NCBI RefSeq assembly: GCF_026991495.1
Contig: NZ_JALXBJ010000088.1
Span: 1 to 64,000 of the forward strand
Length of the DNA: 64,000 bases
Direction: 5' to 3'
From: Thermococcus sp.
Lineage (GTDB): Archaea > Methanobacteriota_B > Thermococci > Thermococcales > Thermococcaceae
Shown here: in pieces, positions 22,589-29,392 of the stretch
Position numbering within the stretch: position 1 is the first letter of the stretch
How the letters are laid out: every line of letters starts with the position of its first letter
Position numbers and translations under genes: made by a program
The notes under the pieces: generated by a model
What the model was told of the DNA's origin: nothing
What the model saw: the letters and a program-made list of their open reading frames with translations, nothing else
Databases searched by the model: none

Positions 22589-23230
22589 GTGACGAGGAAG
22601 CTCTACTACGAGGACGCCTATCTGAAGGAGGCCAAAGCGAAGGTCTTAGAGGCCAGGGGCAACGCACTCCTGCTCGACCAGACAATTTTCTACCCGACCG
22701 GCGGTGGCCAGCCGCACGACAGGGGGACGATAAGCGGCGCTGAAGTCCTCGACGTTTACAAAGACGATGCCGGAAACGTCTGGCACGTCGTTGCCGAGCC
22801 GGAGAAGTTCAGGCCCGGCGATGAGGTCGAGCTCAGAATAGACTGGGACTACAGGTACAAGCTCATGAGGATCCACAGTGCGATGCATCTTTTAGAGCAC
22901 GTCCTCAACGAAGTCCTTCCCGGGAAGTGGGAGCTCTACGGGAGCGGGATGAGCGCCGAGAAGGGCCGCTACGACATACTCTACCCGGAGAACGTCAACA
23001 AATACAAGGAGAAAATCATCGAGGCCTTCAACCGCTACGTCGATGAGGGTGGCGAGATGAAGATTTGGTGGGAAGGGGAAACGCGCTACACCCAGATAAG
23101 GGACTTCGAGGTCATCCCCTGCGGTGGAACCCACGTCAGGGACATAAAAGAGATAGGACATTTGAGGAAGCTCAAGCGCTCCAGCCTCGGAAGGGGAAAG
23201 CAGAGGCTTGAGATATGGCTTGAGGGATGA
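22589..23230 (+). CDS. alaX: Alanyl-tRNA editing protein AlaX
   Basis: AlaX removes serine (or glycine) wrongly attached to tRNA-Ala. The zinc-binding motif is visible as HSAMHLLEH (HxxxH) and CGGTHV; the N-terminal part TIFYPTGGGQPHDRG is the AlaRS-like second-additional-domain fold. At 213 residues it is the medium form (AlaX-M). GTG 22589 is chosen because GGTGAT lies four bases before it and the TATA box CATTTAAATGG at 22549 places the transcription start just upstream; ATG 22583 is the alternative. trmO follows after 7 bp. Confidence 0.93.
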   Translation: MTRKLYYEDAYLKEAKAKVLEARGNALLLDQTIFYPTGGGQPHDRGTISGAEVLDVYKDDAGNVWHVVAEPEKFRPGDEVELRIDWDYRYKLMRIHSAMHLLEHVLNEVLPGKWELYGSGMSAEKGRYDILYPENVNKYKEKIIEAFNRYVDEGGEMKIWWEGETRYTQIRDFEVIPCGGTHVRDIKEIGHLRKLKRSSLGRGKQRLEIWLEG

Positions 23231-23237
23231 TGAACCG

Positions 23238-23903
23238 GTGGCTCTCTTGGACTTCGAGCCCTTCAAAGTAGTTCCAGTTGGCTATGTGAGGAAGGACAAT
23301 AGTGAAACCTTCATCGAGATCCTCCCAGAGTTCAGGGAAGCTGTGGACGGCCTCCGCGAGGACGACTGGATAAAACTAATCCTCTGGTTCCACGAAAGCG
23401 AGGGGCCGAGGAGGAAAATCCTGAAGGTTCACCCCCACGGCAACCCGAAGAACCCTCTGACCGGGGTCTTCGCGACCCGCTCCCCCTACAGGCCCAACCC
23501 GATAGCCCTTTACACCGTCAGGATTCACTGCATAAGCGACGGAAAGCTCTACATAGACTGGATAGATGCCAAGAACGGAACCCCTGTTGTTGACATCAAA
23601 ATCTTCGTTGAGAGATACGATTGTCCAAAGGAGGTGCCCATAGAGGAGAGGGAAGCCCACATCAGGGAGGGCCGGATGATAGGCGAGGTGAACGTAATCC
23701 CGAGGAGGAGCGAGCACCTCGACGAGCTTGAGGAGGTTTCTCCAGAGGAATACGACGCGGTTATCCTTGAGATAGGGCCGAAAACGACGACGCTAACGGC
23801 CAAAGAACTCGTTGAACTGATAGATGGCCTAAAAGAGGTCTATGAGAACCTCCCCGTGGAGATAAAGGACAAGCTCAGAAGACGTGGAGGGCGCTCGCCT
23901 TGA
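23238..23903 (+). CDS. trmO: TrmO-like tRNA methyltransferase (UPF0066 fold)
   Basis: The core of this 221-residue protein has the family signatures [20 protein letters not shown] and [14 protein letters not shown], which bind S-adenosylmethionine in a beta-barrel. TrmO methylates N6 of t6A37 in tRNA in bacteria; archaeal members are less studied. A charged helical extension of about 75 residues follows the core. GTG 23238 follows GGATGAT, and the gene begins 7 bp after alaX, so both are in one tRNA-related operon. Its 3' end overlaps the convergent wtpC by 29 bp. Confidence 0.85.
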
Positions 23904-24909
23904 ACCCCGCGTAGACCTCCTTCCCAGTTCTTATTCCAAGCTCAATGAGAGAGGAGCGCGTTATGAAGGCCGAAATGGACAGGCCCGAGGCGTTGAGGCG
24001 GAGCCTCACAACGGGCCCGAGCTCCTCAACTCCCTCAACCCTCGCCCTCAGGACGTTCCTGACGGAGGTTTTCATCGGTTGGGTGGAGATTATCACGTCT
24101 TCCGGGCGGAGGCCGACGCGGACTTTCCCCTCGGCCTCCACCGGGAGCTCTATCTCGATGCCGTTGATCCTTAGCTTCCTTCCAAAAGCGGTTCCCTCTA
24201 TGATGTTCTCGAAGCCGAGGAACCTCGCAACCCTCTCGCATTTCGGCCTCGAAAAGACATCCCTAACGTCCCCCACCTGAACGAGTCTTCCGTCGAGCAT
24301 TACCCCGACGCGGTCGCCCAGGCTGACGGCCTCCTCGAAGGAGTGGGTAACGTGCAAGGTCGTGAAGCCGAGCTCTTTCCTCCAGCGCTTCATCTCGTTG
24401 ATGAGCCTACCCCTCGTCTGGACGTCGAGGTTTGCGAAGGGCTCGTCTAGGAGTATCAGCGGGGGCTCGATGACGAGTGCCCTCGCGAGGGCAACGCGCT
24501 GCTGCTCGCCACCGCTCAGCGTTCTGGGCTTCCTCTTCAGGAGGCTCTCGATGCCGAGAACTTCAACTATCTCCCCAACTCTCCTCTCTATTTCAGCCTT
24601 CGGGAGCTTCCTGAGTTTGAGGCCAAAGGCTATGTTGTCGTAAACGCTCATGTTTGGGAAGAGGGCGTAGCTCTGGGGGACGTAGGCCAGACCCCTCTTC
24701 TCCGGTGGCCATCCGGTAACGTCAACCCCGTTCAGGAGTATCCTGCCGGAGTCAGGGCTTATGAGGCCGGCTATCACCTCAAGGAGAACGGTCTTCCCGG
24801 CACCGCTCGGCCCGAGAATTATGAAGTACTCGCCCTTCGAGACCGTGAATGAAACGCCCCTTAAGTGGAAGTCGCCGTAGTCCCTGGAGACATTTTGCAC
24901 GTTAAGCAT
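23875..24909 (-). CDS. wtpC: Tungstate/molybdate ABC transporter ATPase
   Basis: A 344-residue ABC ATPase: Walker A GPSGAGKT, signature LSGGEQQR, Walker [10 protein letters not shown]-loop VTHSFEE. The C-terminal ~100 residues form a TOBE/Mop-type regulatory domain ([25 protein letters not shown]), as in Mod and Wtp ATPases. It energises the WtpB pore. It normally follows wtpB directly; here two foreign-looking genes lie between. Its ribosome binding site GGGTGA is formed by the stop codon of the TOPRIM gene, with four bases before ATG 24909, so its translation is now tied to that gene. Confidence 0.93.
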
Positions 24910-24913
24910 GTTC

Positions 24914-25633
24914 TCACCCAGTGAGGAAATCGAGAAACGTTTTCAAACCGGATTCATTTAAAAATTCTTTCACAACTTTAGGGTTTTTCCTGATCATTTC
25001 CTCGATAAAGTTTCTATATAAGCCCGAAAGTGAGTCTCCTGTATAGTTTTTAGCGATTGCCAAGAGATGCATGATGTCTTTCGGCATGAGCTTTCTTCCC
25101 AGCTCTACAGTTAGTTGGCCTATCGAACCTTCGAGCTTTGAGAGGGTGCTCTCTTTTCTGGCGAGGAGGGCTATCAGAAGCTCAAGTTCTTTTTTGGCTT
25201 CGAGGTTTTGTTCATCAATGGTGACGTTCCCAACACCAAAGGGAACAACTTTTACCCCATTTACAAGGAGATAGCCATCCTTCACCTCCGACTCAAACTT
25301 TCTTAAAGTGCTCTTGGCCCAGTTTAAGACATCCTCCTCGGTATCAACGTCTCTAGCTACCCCCATGAGAGCAGGCAACTCCTCGAACCTGTTCAAGCCC
25401 TTAAAGATTGCACTAAGAGCCCTTTTGATTTTATCTTTTCCATTGGCATGTAATACGACTAACAGGGTTTCACCCTTAGTTAGGCAGATGGGTCTTGAGA
25501 TGTCGTTATCTCTCGAAAAGGGCAGGATTTCACATACCTCTCTGTTTTCTCTGAACCTGTAGAAGTGTTCTATCAGGGGAAGAAAGAAGCTAACATCAGT
25601 CCTGCCTTCCAAGAGCAAAATCCTCACTTCCAT
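24914..25633 (-). CDS. TOPRIM-like nuclease-family protein (DUF3226-like) paired with an AAA ATPase
   Basis: The 239-residue protein starts with [16 protein letters not shown], a TOPRIM motif with the conserved Glu (E10-like position), and has [14 protein letters not shown] in the middle, giving the DxD metal site. The rest is helical. Similar small TOPRIM proteins encoded after an OLD-type ATPase act in phage defence modules (PARIS AriB, DUF4435) or are annotated DUF3226; which of these it belongs to I cannot decide. It starts 3 bp after the ATPase gene and ends 4 bp before wtpC. Base composition is visibly more AT-rich than the flanking wtp genes. Confidence 0.75.
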
Positions 25634-25636
25634 ATC

Positions 25637-26656
25637 TCATCCCCTCAAGTCGACTCCAAGGGTTTCCCTAAGCTCCCTTGACTCCTCGAAGGTCTCTATT
25701 GACGCCTTAACGTCCCCGTCTTCCCGTCTCATATAAATGACTCGCCCATCAATGTTTTTCTTGAGGCCTTCACTTAGGAGGAGGTCCATTAACTCAAGAC
25801 TATGGGTCGTTAGGAATACCTGAACGTTGTTCTCTTTTGCCCCTTTAAGGAGGGTTTTAGCTATGACCCTCAAAGACTTGGGATGGTGGAAGGCCTCAGC
25901 CGAATCTATGAGGAGGTATCCCCCTCTCAAAAGTGACGACAGGAAGGCTATAATCATGGCGTTTTTGAATCCCTCCCCCATCAGGTAATAGGGATAAACG
26001 CCGTATTCTGTTTCAACGTGAAGTATCCACTTATTTGCTTTAAATAATGGGCTGAAACCTTCGACCTCTGGATAAGCCTCTCTAAGAATTCTCAAGCTGT
26101 CCTTCACGACTTTCTTCTCGTATGCGTAAGAATAAAGGCTCTCAACGTATCCAAACTTACGAAGGGTGAAGGGAGTTACAAACTCAAAATTTAGATTGGG
26201 GTCAAACTTTGAGGAGAGCAGGAACGAAGACAGCACACTCGAATCAACGAGATTGTGCATTTGAAATCCGGTATCTAATTTTGGTGACTTTTCATCAACC
26301 TCTCTCAGCACAATGTGAAAAGTTGGTAATGCATTAATGCCTTTGACCTCTTTTTTTAATGTGAGTATCCAGGGGATACCATTCTGCACCGCCTCAATCC
26401 TCACAAATTCGGCCCCTATGTGGAACAAATCTTCTACTGCCTGAGGCCCGTACCACCCCCTCCACATCAGAATCTCCTGAAGGAGACTCCTGAATGATTG
26501 AATTCCCCCGAAGGCACCCAAAAGAAGGGATAACCCCTCAAGTACACTCGACTTGCCCGCGTTGTTTTTACCAGCAATAACATTAACTTGGCCAAGATTG
26601 TTGAGTTTCAATTCCATTATACCCCTAAAATTCTCAATTGTAAGAGATGTTATCAT
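25637..26656 (-). CDS. OLD/AAA15-like ATPase, probable defence or genome-maintenance protein
   Basis: A 339-residue SMC/ABC-like ATPase: it begins ITSLTIENFRGI, Walker A is GKNNAGKSS, Walker B is LLIDSAEAFHHP and the H-loop is FLTTHSLELMD. In most relatives Walker B reads IDExExxLHP; here the first glutamate is serine while the second remains, so ATP hydrolysis may be altered. The ATG at 26656 follows GGGGAT by four bases. It is immediately followed by the TOPRIM gene, and the pair separates wtpB from wtpC. The sequence is AT-rich compared with its neighbours, a sign of recent transfer. Confidence 0.82.
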   Translation of the reverse strand: MITSLTIENFRGIMELKLNNLGQVNVIAGKNNAGKSSVLEGLSLLLGAFGGIQSFRSLLQEILMWRGWYGPQAVEDLFHIGAEFVRIEAVQNGIPWILTLKKEVKGINALPTFHIVLREVDEKSPKLDTGFQMHNLVDSSVLSSFLLSSKFDPNLNFEFVTPFTLRKFGYVESLYSYAYEKKVVKDSLRILREAYPEVEGFSPLFKANKWILHVETEYGVYPYYLMGEGFKNAMIIAFLSSLLRGGYLLIDSAEAFHHPKSLRVIAKTLLKGAKENNVQVFLTTHSLELMDLLLSEGLKKNIDGRVIYMRREDGDVKASIETFEESRELRETLGVDLRG

Positions 26657-26705
26657 GAGCATCCCCTTTTATTATTGAATGTTTAGCCCACTTAAAGCTT
26701 TATCC

Positions 26706-27452
26706 TCAAGCATTTTTGGCCCTCCCGACGAGCCAGCGCAGGAGCACGAAGATTCCGAGGCTCAGTGAGACCATCAAAACCGCTATTGGGCGCGATGACC
26801 TGAGGCCGTAGTTGTTGAAGTACTCAAGGATGAGAACCTGGGCCGTCTTCGGGTAGTAGGCAACAACGAGTATTGCACCGACCTCGCTGACCGCTCTCGC
26901 CCACGTCATTATCGCACCGCTCGCTATGCTCGGGAAGGCGAGGGGCAGGGCTACCGAGGCGAAGGCCCTCAGCCGGGACGCTCCGAGGGTTCTGGCAACG
27001 CCCTCAAGCTTCTCGTCTACCGCTGAAAAGCCGTCCCTTGAGGCGTTTATAGTGAAGGGGGCGGAGACAAAGAGCATGGCGGAGATTATGCCGAGGTAGT
27101 TGTCGAGGATGGCCCTTGAAAAGGTCACGAGGAGCATTATGCCCACGACCGAGTGGGGGATAACGATGGGGACGTCAATGAGGGCCTGCACAAAGCTCTT
27201 TCCCGGGAACTCTTCCCTAGCTAGAACGTAGCCGAGGGGAACACCGAAGAGAAGGGCTATTAAAGCTGTCGCCGTCGCCGTTGCGAGGGAGTTCCTGAGG
27301 GCTTCGAGGACGAGGGGGTCGTGGAGGGTCTTTACGAGCATACCGGCGTCAGAGGCCTGCTTGAGGAAGATGACCGCTATGGGCAGGGCTATGTAGAGAA
27401 TAAGGAAAGTCCCGAGGGTTGCGAAGAGGTAGAGGATGTAGTCGCGCCTCAT
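26706..27452 (-). CDS. wtpB: Tungstate/molybdate ABC transporter permease
   Basis: 248 residues with about six membrane segments and the binding-protein-dependent permease motif near [24 protein letters not shown] (the EAA loop that docks the ATPase). It forms the membrane pore for tungstate delivered by WtpA. The gene has its own TATA box (TAAATAAC at about 27474-27481), placing transcription start at the ATG, so the mRNA is probably leaderless. That fits its separation from wtpA by a toxin-antitoxin module on the other strand. Confidence 0.93.
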
Positions 27453-27608
27453 CCCTAAACGCTTTGAGGAAAGTTATTTATGATTTTCGGGGGTGTTAAA
27501 CTAGAATGTTCAACAAGATTTCCTCCCCATTGCCATGGGTGGTATCGGGACCTTTGTAGGGGCAAAACTTTTATGTTTGTCGGACATATGGAACCATCGG
27601 TGAGCCAT

Positions 27609-27893
27609 ATGGGAACCAGCGTTAAGATTACCGCGAGGATACCACCGGCCCTCGCGGCAGAAATAGACCGCCTAGTCAATGCAGGATACTACTCAAACAG
27701 GAGCGAGGTCATCAAGGAGGCCCTCCGCGATTTTCTCGTAAGGAAGAGGGCCCTTATCGAGGAGGCCTCAGATGAGGAGTTCGTCCGCCTTGCAAAGAGG
27801 ACTATCGAGCCCCTTCTCGCTGAAGACTGGGAGAGCGAGGCGGATGAGTACTGGGATAAAATCACGGGTGTGAGGTATGAGCCCGAGGTGTGA
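27609..27893 (+). CDS. Ribbon-helix-helix antitoxin
   Basis: 94 residues; the N-terminal 45 (SVKITARIPPALAAEIDRLV, then YYSNRSEVIKEALRDFL) are a classic CopG/ParD-type ribbon-helix-helix DNA-binding domain, and the acidic C-terminal part would wrap the toxin. ATG 27609 follows GGTGAGCC; the TATA box CTTTTATG lies at about 27570. A near-direct repeat (CATATGGAACC at 27583 and CATATGGGAACC at 27607) overlaps the start and could be an operator. The toxin gene overlaps its end by 17 bp. Confidence 0.88.
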   Translation: MGTSVKITARIPPALAAEIDRLVNAGYYSNRSEVIKEALRDFLVRKRALIEEASDEEFVRLAKRTIEPLLAEDWESEADEYWDKITGVRYEPEV

Positions 27894-28281
27894 GGCTCCA
27901 AGAGGGCTGAGACAGTGGGAGGTAGTCCTTCTCGAGTTTCCCTTTTCGGACTCGTCAAAGAAAAAGCTCCGGCCCGTTCTGGTGCTCTCGAACTCAGACT
28001 TCAACCGGATTAGCAACAGCGTGGTCGTCTGCCAGATAACTTCCAACCTTTCAAGCGGGTTCAGGGAGTACAACGTTTTCATAGAGCCCAGTGATGTGTG
28101 CCTTTACGGCGATGCCTTCATGCGTCCCAGTCTTGTAAAGCCTTACATGGTGTTCTCTGTGTCCAAGAGGGAGGTTCACTTCAAGGTCGGAGTCCTCTCA
28201 GAGGAGAAGGCGGATGAAGTTAGGGAAAGACTCCGAAAGCTCTTTGATTATCGGGTCTTCACTGTAGAGCAGGGAAAATAG
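27877..28281 (+). CDS. MazF/PemK-family endoribonuclease toxin
   Basis: 134 residues; the start of the MazF fold is clear in WEVVLLEFPFSDSSKKKLRPVLVLSN, where the conserved arginine-proline of the K-x-R-P-x-L-V-L element lies in the active site, followed by VCQITSNL. MazF toxins cut single-stranded RNA and are held inactive by their antitoxin. The gene overlaps the antitoxin gene and the pair sits alone on the + strand between wtpA and wtpB, both on the minus strand. Confidence 0.88.
   Translation: MSPRCEAPRGLRQWEVVLLEFPFSDSSKKKLRPVLVLSNSDFNRISNSVVVCQITSNLSSGFREYNVFIEPSDVCLYGDAFMRPSLVKPYMVFSVSKREVHFKVGVLSEEKADEVRERLRKLFDYRVFTVEQGK

Positions 28282-28312: not shown

Positions 28313-29392
<1,080 letters not shown>

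Follow-up and report, generated by a model that had tools for sequence, protein, structure and literature searches.

A recurrent, horizontally exchanged and mosaic ABC-ATPase/TOPRIM gene pair at the wtpB/wtpC junction of Thermococcales, a putative immune module

The window, as we call the whole 64,000-nucleotide stretch of Thermococcus DNA analysed here (genome G000 in our set), carries the genes of a tungstate transporter on its minus strand. Two further genes on the same strand separate wtpB from wtpC, giving the order wtpA, wtpB, ATPase, TOPRIM, wtpC. The identities of WtpA, WtpB and WtpC are certain from their family matches. The features of the locus are as follows:

28313..29359, minus strand: wtpA, tungstate-binding protein (PRK04168, 2.8e-151; TIGR03730, 2.6e-120)
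26706..27452, minus strand: wtpB, tungstate ABC permease, upstream flank (NF040839, 4.5e-104)
26704..26713, minus strand: ATGCTTGAGG, end of wtpB and left edge of the insertion (junctions of holders compared with empty loci)
26692..26701, minus strand: AAAGCTTTAA, TATA-like box just past the wtpB stop, putative promoter of the pair
25637..26662, minus strand: OLD-type ABC ATPase, 341 aa, putative sensor/regulator (Pfam, PADLOC, AlphaFold2 model)
24914..25633, minus strand: DUF3226 TOPRIM protein, 239 aa, putative two-metal nuclease effector (PF11536; PDB 2P62, phmmer 2.4e-49)
24880..24909, minus strand: first ~30 nt of wtpC, probable co-imported flank (67% identity to the sister genome G060)
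23875..24909, minus strand: wtpC, tungstate ABC ATP-binding protein, downstream flank (NF040840, 1.7e-164)

An earlier note on this DNA had described an ATPase and a TOPRIM gene that separate wtpB from wtpC, run in the transporter's direction and leave gaps of 3 and 4 bp. Both reading frames lie on the minus strand between verified wtp flanks, and the ORF coordinates give 43 bp between wtpB and the ATPase gene, 3 bp between the ATPase and TOPRIM genes and 4 bp between the TOPRIM gene and wtpC. The ATPase frame has an alternative ATG at 26656, which is the end given in that first reading. The pair is AT-rich relative to its surroundings, as had also been noticed, with a GC content of 44-45% compared to 58-59% for wtpB and wtpC. 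Its neighbours are the wtp genes, and the locus is no defence island. Further upstream, the gap between wtpA and wtpB holds a ribbon-helix-helix/PemK (MazF-like) toxin-antitoxin pair on the plus strand (27600-28281), opposite the wtp genes. G060 and G027 have the same pair in this gap, and G024 and G069 have a VapBC-like one; the gap looks like a toxin-antitoxin spot. At the far end of the locus, a convergent plus-strand gene (23208-23903), kept in several relatives, runs about 29 bp into the 3' end of wtpC.

Immediately past the wtpB stop codon, a box like AAAGCTTTAA is present in 11 of the 11 holders of the pair outside Pyrococcus (26701-26692 in the window). The corresponding pattern, AAAGNTTTAA, is expected 0.34 times in 64 kb and was observed twice. 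We infer that AAAGCTTTAA is plausibly an archaeal TATA-type promoter of the pair. Downstream, the TOPRIM stop codon lies within a GGTGA-like stretch just 5' of the wtpC ATG in nearly all holders, and this stretch likely serves as the ribosome-binding site of wtpC. With its own promoter-like box and an end that resembles a ribosome-binding site, the cassette need not harm wtpC expression or tungstate uptake. The insertion into the tungstate operon is real. As a promoter of its own is probable for the pair, neither a tungstate-regulated unit nor co-regulation with tungstate is required.

The ATPase matches AAA_15 (6e-20) and AAA_21 (2e-17) in Pfam. It contains a Walker A motif (GKNNAGKSS), a signature-like MGEGFK, a Walker B motif (LLIDSAEAFHHP) and an H-loop (TTHS), and the Walker A lysine, the MG-GFK signature region and the H-loop histidine are invariant among its homologs. 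The exchange of the Walker B glutamate for serine, pointed out in the earlier note, is borne out by a profile alignment to the solved OLD protein 6P74, a retron ATPase and PtuA. Serine stands at the position of the catalytic glutamate in IIEEPEMYLHP, LIDEIDLHLHP and LIDEVDMFLHP, respectively. Every intact copy of the pair has this serine, as does a copy on a plasmid of Methanocaldococcus jannaschii, and the protein therefore lacks the Walker B catalytic glutamate that marks hydrolytic ABC ATPases. In ABC ATPases, loss of this residue slows hydrolysis and stabilises the ATP-bound state. By analogy, the serine-bearing ATPase should hydrolyse ATP slowly. Its AlphaFold2 model (pLDDT 87.5) is an ABC head like those of SMC, Rad50 and PtuA (VIA Z 18-21), with no coiled-coil arm. 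We assign the protein a putative role as sensor or regulator.

The TOPRIM protein matches DUF3226 (PF11536, 6e-10) with 39.8 bits, above the Pfam gathering cut-off of 27, in line with the family suggested for it at first reading. PDB entry 2P62 is a "hypothetical protein PH0156" from Pyrococcus horikoshii, and its aligned sequence equals the TOPRIM protein encoded between wtpB and wtpC in G006. PH0156 is about 40% identical to the window protein. It has had a structure since 2007 with no function assigned, and the papers searched gave no function, partner or locus analysis of it. Our model of the window protein (pLDDT 89.7) superimposes on 2P62 with a VIA Z of 29.0 (rmsd 2.3 over 237 residues). 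It also matches the C-terminal region of OLD in 6NK8 (Z 9.7, rmsd 4.7 over 174 residues) and GajA (Z 8.8 and 8.1, rmsd 4.2 and 4.5 over 158 and 156 residues); unrelated rows in the same comparison score about 7, below the values for 6NK8 and GajA. Foldseek matches of the model past 2P62, to small GTPases and nucleosidases, were taken as noise.

In a set of 15 homologs, E9, D13, D95, D97, E149, E151 and K185 of the TOPRIM protein are invariant. The acidic residues occur in the same order and with similar spacing as the metal ligands of Bp OLD, namely E400, E404, D455, D457, T506 and E508, with K562 (PMC6755086); K185 is matched to K562 by sequence order only. The 15 homologs all carry the hallmarks of an OLD-type two-metal site: E-x3-[ED], D-x-D and further acidic residues at helix 1 of the helical domain. 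At the level of sequence, the TOPRIM protein keeps all the residues expected of such a site. Because these invariant residues follow Bp OLD in order and spacing, and because the model matches OLD and GajA, we predict that the protein is likely a nuclease. Elsewhere in G000, a DUF3226 paralog of about 340 residues (L109:2666-3688, G000:C69) is 30% identical to it and has an extra N-terminal region of about 100 residues; no adjoining ATPase partner was seen. Such paralogs occur in nearly all Thermococcus-type genomes and were not seen in Pyrococcus.

ABC-ATPase/TOPRIM pairs form a large antiviral class known mainly from bacteria, and we found no test of versions from archaeal hyperthermophiles in the literature. 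The ABC-ATPase/Toprim defences listed in a 2025 paper are OLD, Gabija, retrons, AbiL, MADS and PARIS, the last of which senses a phage protein and then releases the AriB tRNase from the AriA hexamer (PMC12409363). The earlier note likened the pair to PARIS and Gabija without an exact fit to any system. This likeness stands, as does the lack of an exact fit, but AbiL, PDC-M38 and Mad4 of MADS are at least equally near.

The best PADLOC match of the ATPase, and of all 16 of its homologs, is PDC-M38A (7.5e-36), part of a candidate system for which we found no describing paper. PDC-M38B is the commonest match among the TOPRIM homologs; it matches the window TOPRIM weakly (0.008) and orthologs down to 5.6e-8, over the N-terminal ~100 residues only. 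AbiL has an OLD-type ATPase and a separate partner gene, as here, and AbiLi matches the window ATPase at 1.3e-31, but AbiLii has no match to the window TOPRIM and reaches one ortholog at 0.009. PARIS, which has been proposed as class 4 OLD, likewise has its ATPase and TOPRIM on adjacent genes. A search with its profiles, as the earlier note had advised, bore out half of the resemblance: AriA matches the ATPase (2.3e-20), but AriB has no match to the window TOPRIM and finds 1 of the 15 homologs at 0.002. The Mad4 profile matches 10 of the 15 TOPRIM homologs, with the P. horikoshii protein scoring best (9.3e-20), and does not match the window TOPRIM at E up to 10; the remaining mad genes are absent from the wtp locus. 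GajA of Gabija and the class 1 and 2 OLD proteins share the TOPRIM-helical fold (Z 8.1-9.7) and the acidic metal-site pattern, but they are single fused ATPase-TOPRIM chains, whereas two ORFs are present here. Gabija also has the GajB helicase, while the pair has no helicase and is flanked by wtpB and wtpC. Judged by these comparisons, the pair departs from PARIS, Gabija, AbiL and MADS in at least one defining part of each, and we would class it as an archaeal subfamily of its own among the ABC-ATPase/TOPRIM conflict systems.

Each of the four proteins (WtpB, ATPase, TOPRIM and WtpC) served as a query against 94 Thermococcales genomes. The pair, in full or cut by a contig end, is present in 17 of them, distributed over four genera (g1 to g4), and in every one of the 17 it immediately follows wtpB. 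For counts of filled and empty junctions we used the 72 genomes in which a single contig carries both wtpB and wtpC. The junction is filled in 15 and empty in 57; the 15 inserts measure 1.6-1.9 kb, each is an ATPase/TOPRIM pair, and nothing else is inserted among the 72 loci. The earlier statement that wtp genes are normally contiguous is therefore accurate for 57 of 72 loci, but it passes over an insertion that recurs across genera and always at the same junction. G060, the nearest sister of the window's genome, has an empty junction; its WtpB and WtpC are 95% and 94% identical to those of the window. Occurrence in most Thermococcales, or identity with a known housekeeping pair, had been named as grounds for doubting that the pair is unusual; it occurs in 17 of 94 genomes and 15 of 72 intact wtp loci, and it is no known housekeeping pair. 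Because homologous pairs occupy the same place in 16 other genomes, its position in the window is not due to chance.

Two loci in the survey depart from the common form. In G001 the ATPase is split over two frames at about residue 181 with an intact TOPRIM gene (L094:4288-5311), which is either a broken copy or an assembly error. In G023 a divergent ATPase gene stands alone just downstream of an intact wtpBC, with no TOPRIM gene (L107:4563-5594). Its Walker A reads GRNNSSKSS and its Walker B LFIDLAETFHHP, with leucine at the position of the serine; it is probably a relict or variant.

The junctions bear on how the pair arrived. The start of wtpC falls within the last bases of wtpB in most empty loci (AAAAATGCTTGAGG in G060), and the two genes overlap by a few bases in 52 of the 57. 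In the window, G077 and G001, the end of wtpB reads ATGCTTGAGG and the insert follows directly. These are the bases of the wtpB-stop/wtpC-start overlap in empty relatives, indicating that the insertion split the overlapping stop and start. Transposon integration seems improbable from the junction sequences, where the one shared stretch is the ATGCTT left from the earlier overlap of the two genes.

The start of wtpC carries a second trace. Nucleotides 1-90 of wtpC in G077, a filled locus, are 57-60% identical to those of its empty sister G074, while identity from nucleotide 91 on is about 97%; the 5' tract has a Fisher p of 1.5e-18. The first 60 nt of this gene are instead 87% identical to those of another holder, G072, compared to 66% for the remaining wtpC. 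With G060 as reference, the first 60 nt of wtpC in G000 are 78% identical, against 94% beyond (p 7e-5), and identity of the same tract is lowered in G085 (1e-4), G001 (3e-4) and G072 (2e-4). In G085 the first 30 nt match the holder G083 at 93%. As a control, 22 empty loci were compared with their nearest empty relatives, and one of the 22, with an odd gene start, fell below 0.01. The 5' tracts are best read as homologous recombination that imported the pair together with a bit of wtpC.

On a tree of wtpB and wtpC from 37 loci, presence and absence of the pair require at least 12 changes. The tracts indicate that the pair was gained in several lineages, with part of wtpC coming from another holder. 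Ancestral presence followed by losses only is rejected for G077 by its foreign wtpC 5' end and, on the same grounds, probably for G000, G085, G001 and G072. For G052, G018 and the Pyrococcus holders, loss instead of gain is possible.

Exchange has also acted within the pair. Residues 1-245 of the ATPase fall into two types, long (L, ~360 aa) and short (S, ~310-345 aa), separated with a support of 100. The L-type grouping is rejected by AU tests for the ATPase C-part (1e-5), the TOPRIM N-part (5e-67) and the TOPRIM C-part (4e-8). G024 and G077, for example, are 94% identical in the ATPase C-part, 71-82% in the TOPRIM parts and 13% in ATPase residues 81-155. Between G018 and G052, wtpB (98%), wtpC (92%) and the TOPRIM C-part (96%) are close, with 26% identity in the TOPRIM N-part and 7% in ATPase residues 81-155. 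This last segment is the most variable even within a type, at 20-63% in the compared pairs, near-identical copies excepted. The trees and identities indicate that, within a single slot, ATPase N-part types have been reassorted relative to the ATPase C-terminus and to the two TOPRIM halves. When Pyrococcus copies are compared, the pair has a dN/dS of 0.12-0.25 and the wtp genes one of 0.01-0.07, which we read as relaxed or faster evolution; values below 1 are no proof of positive selection. Taken together, the sequence comparisons identify a real, recurrent, horizontally exchanged and mosaic cassette at the wtpB/wtpC junction.

This history is unlike that of repair genes. An accessory module for DNA repair or recombination, pairing a Rad50/SMC-like ATPase with a TOPRIM nuclease, would account for an ATPase fold nearest to SMC and Rad50 heads, for the relation of OLD proteins to RecF and RecN and for the near-universal DUF3226 paralog of Thermococcus-type genomes. 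However, the pair is patchy, horizontally exchanged and mosaic, the ATPase model has no coiled-coil arm, and its best family matches are defence ATPases. We regard a repair function as very improbable.

Relatives of the pair also exist away from the wtp slot. Those outside Thermococcales come from the plasmid collection only; a scan of the genome collection with the TOPRIM alignment returned Thermococcales loci only. The 58-kb plasmid of M. jannaschii (NC_001732.1, L155:8158-9890) carries a pair whose ATPase is 54% and whose TOPRIM protein is 42% identical, with no wtp gene among the annotated neighbours. Its ATPase has the same LLIDSAEAFHHP and is broken by an in-frame stop. The TOPRIM end of this pair is divergent, and the annotation gives two AAA proteins and a DUF3226 protein. 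A second, distant pair of AAA and DUF3226 genes occurs in three Pyrococcus genomes, G007 (L156:6291-8015), G010 and G011. It has EEPEN at Walker B instead of DSAEA and adjoins other ATPase genes, away from wtp. In phage records we found no copy of the pair. Among viral contigs, the TOPRIM alignment gave no confirmed match and the ATPase alignment one distant match (25%); PHROGs yielded no TOPRIM match, and its other matches were only to unnamed or P-loop families.

The plasmid pair and the second Pyrococcus pair, neither of them near wtp, speak for mobile, conflict-type genes and against a role tied to tungstate. A pair that serves tungstate metabolism, with ATPase and nuclease forming a switch that responds to tungstate or tungstopterin status and adjusts transporter expression or RNA, would suit the fact that 17 of 17 Thermococcales copies follow wtpB directly, in the same direction and mostly a few bp before wtpC, and that no genome without a wtpB match has the full pair. 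We nevertheless consider it unlikely. Most wtp loci (57 of 72, the closest sister included) do without the pair, its two ATPase types are interchangeable, and the fixed place is explained by co-import of the wtp flanks.

We think it probable that the pair is a sensor-nuclease immune module akin to PARIS, AbiL and the ATPase/TOPRIM arm of MADS, held in a fixed operon slot and exchanged through the wtp flanks. In an uninfected cell, the ATP-loaded and slowly hydrolysing ATPase would form a complex with the TOPRIM nuclease and keep it inactive. Binding of a viral or plasmid product to the variable part of the ATPase (~residues 81-245) would free or activate the nuclease, which would then cut either host tRNA, like AriB, or DNA, like OLD and GajA, halting the invader. 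The cassette would spread by ordinary homologous recombination via the wtp flanks, which would explain its absence from other sites in Thermococcales.

An alternative is a selfish addiction cassette of the toxin-antitoxin kind, in which the ATPase holds a TOPRIM toxin, loss is harmful and no real immunity is conferred. The two-gene layout, the patchy distribution, the AT-rich composition, the plasmid relative and the toxin-antitoxin pairs in the adjoining wtpA-wtpB gap all agree with it, and it overlaps with immunity because PARIS-type systems also act on the host. Yet reshuffled ATPase N-parts and TOPRIM halves fit a changing trigger better, and copies have been broken without loss of the locus, by the frameshift in the G001 ATPase and the stop in that of M. 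jannaschii. Pure addiction thus seems quite unlikely to us.

For the immune module that we favour, the surprising feature is the combination of a strict single slot in a housekeeping transporter operon with an allele-like exchange of parts. This suggests that immune genes may ride a housekeeping operon and be swapped like alleles by flank recombination, not by integration of mobile elements. More tentatively, and with slightly less than even confidence, we propose that the junction is a fixed, single-site "immune allele" locus, that species and genera exchange its variable sensor parts by homologous recombination across the flanking transporter genes, and that the serine Walker B ATPase is perhaps an ATP-locked switch and not a motor driven by hydrolysis. 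The pair is attractive for study, since a structure of the putative effector exists (2P62) and hyperstable proteins suit biochemistry. Sister species with and without the pair at one site, together with the reshuffled sensor and effector halves, offer natural experiments. If the serine at Walker B is functional, the pair would contain a switch ATPase that works without the usual catalytic base.
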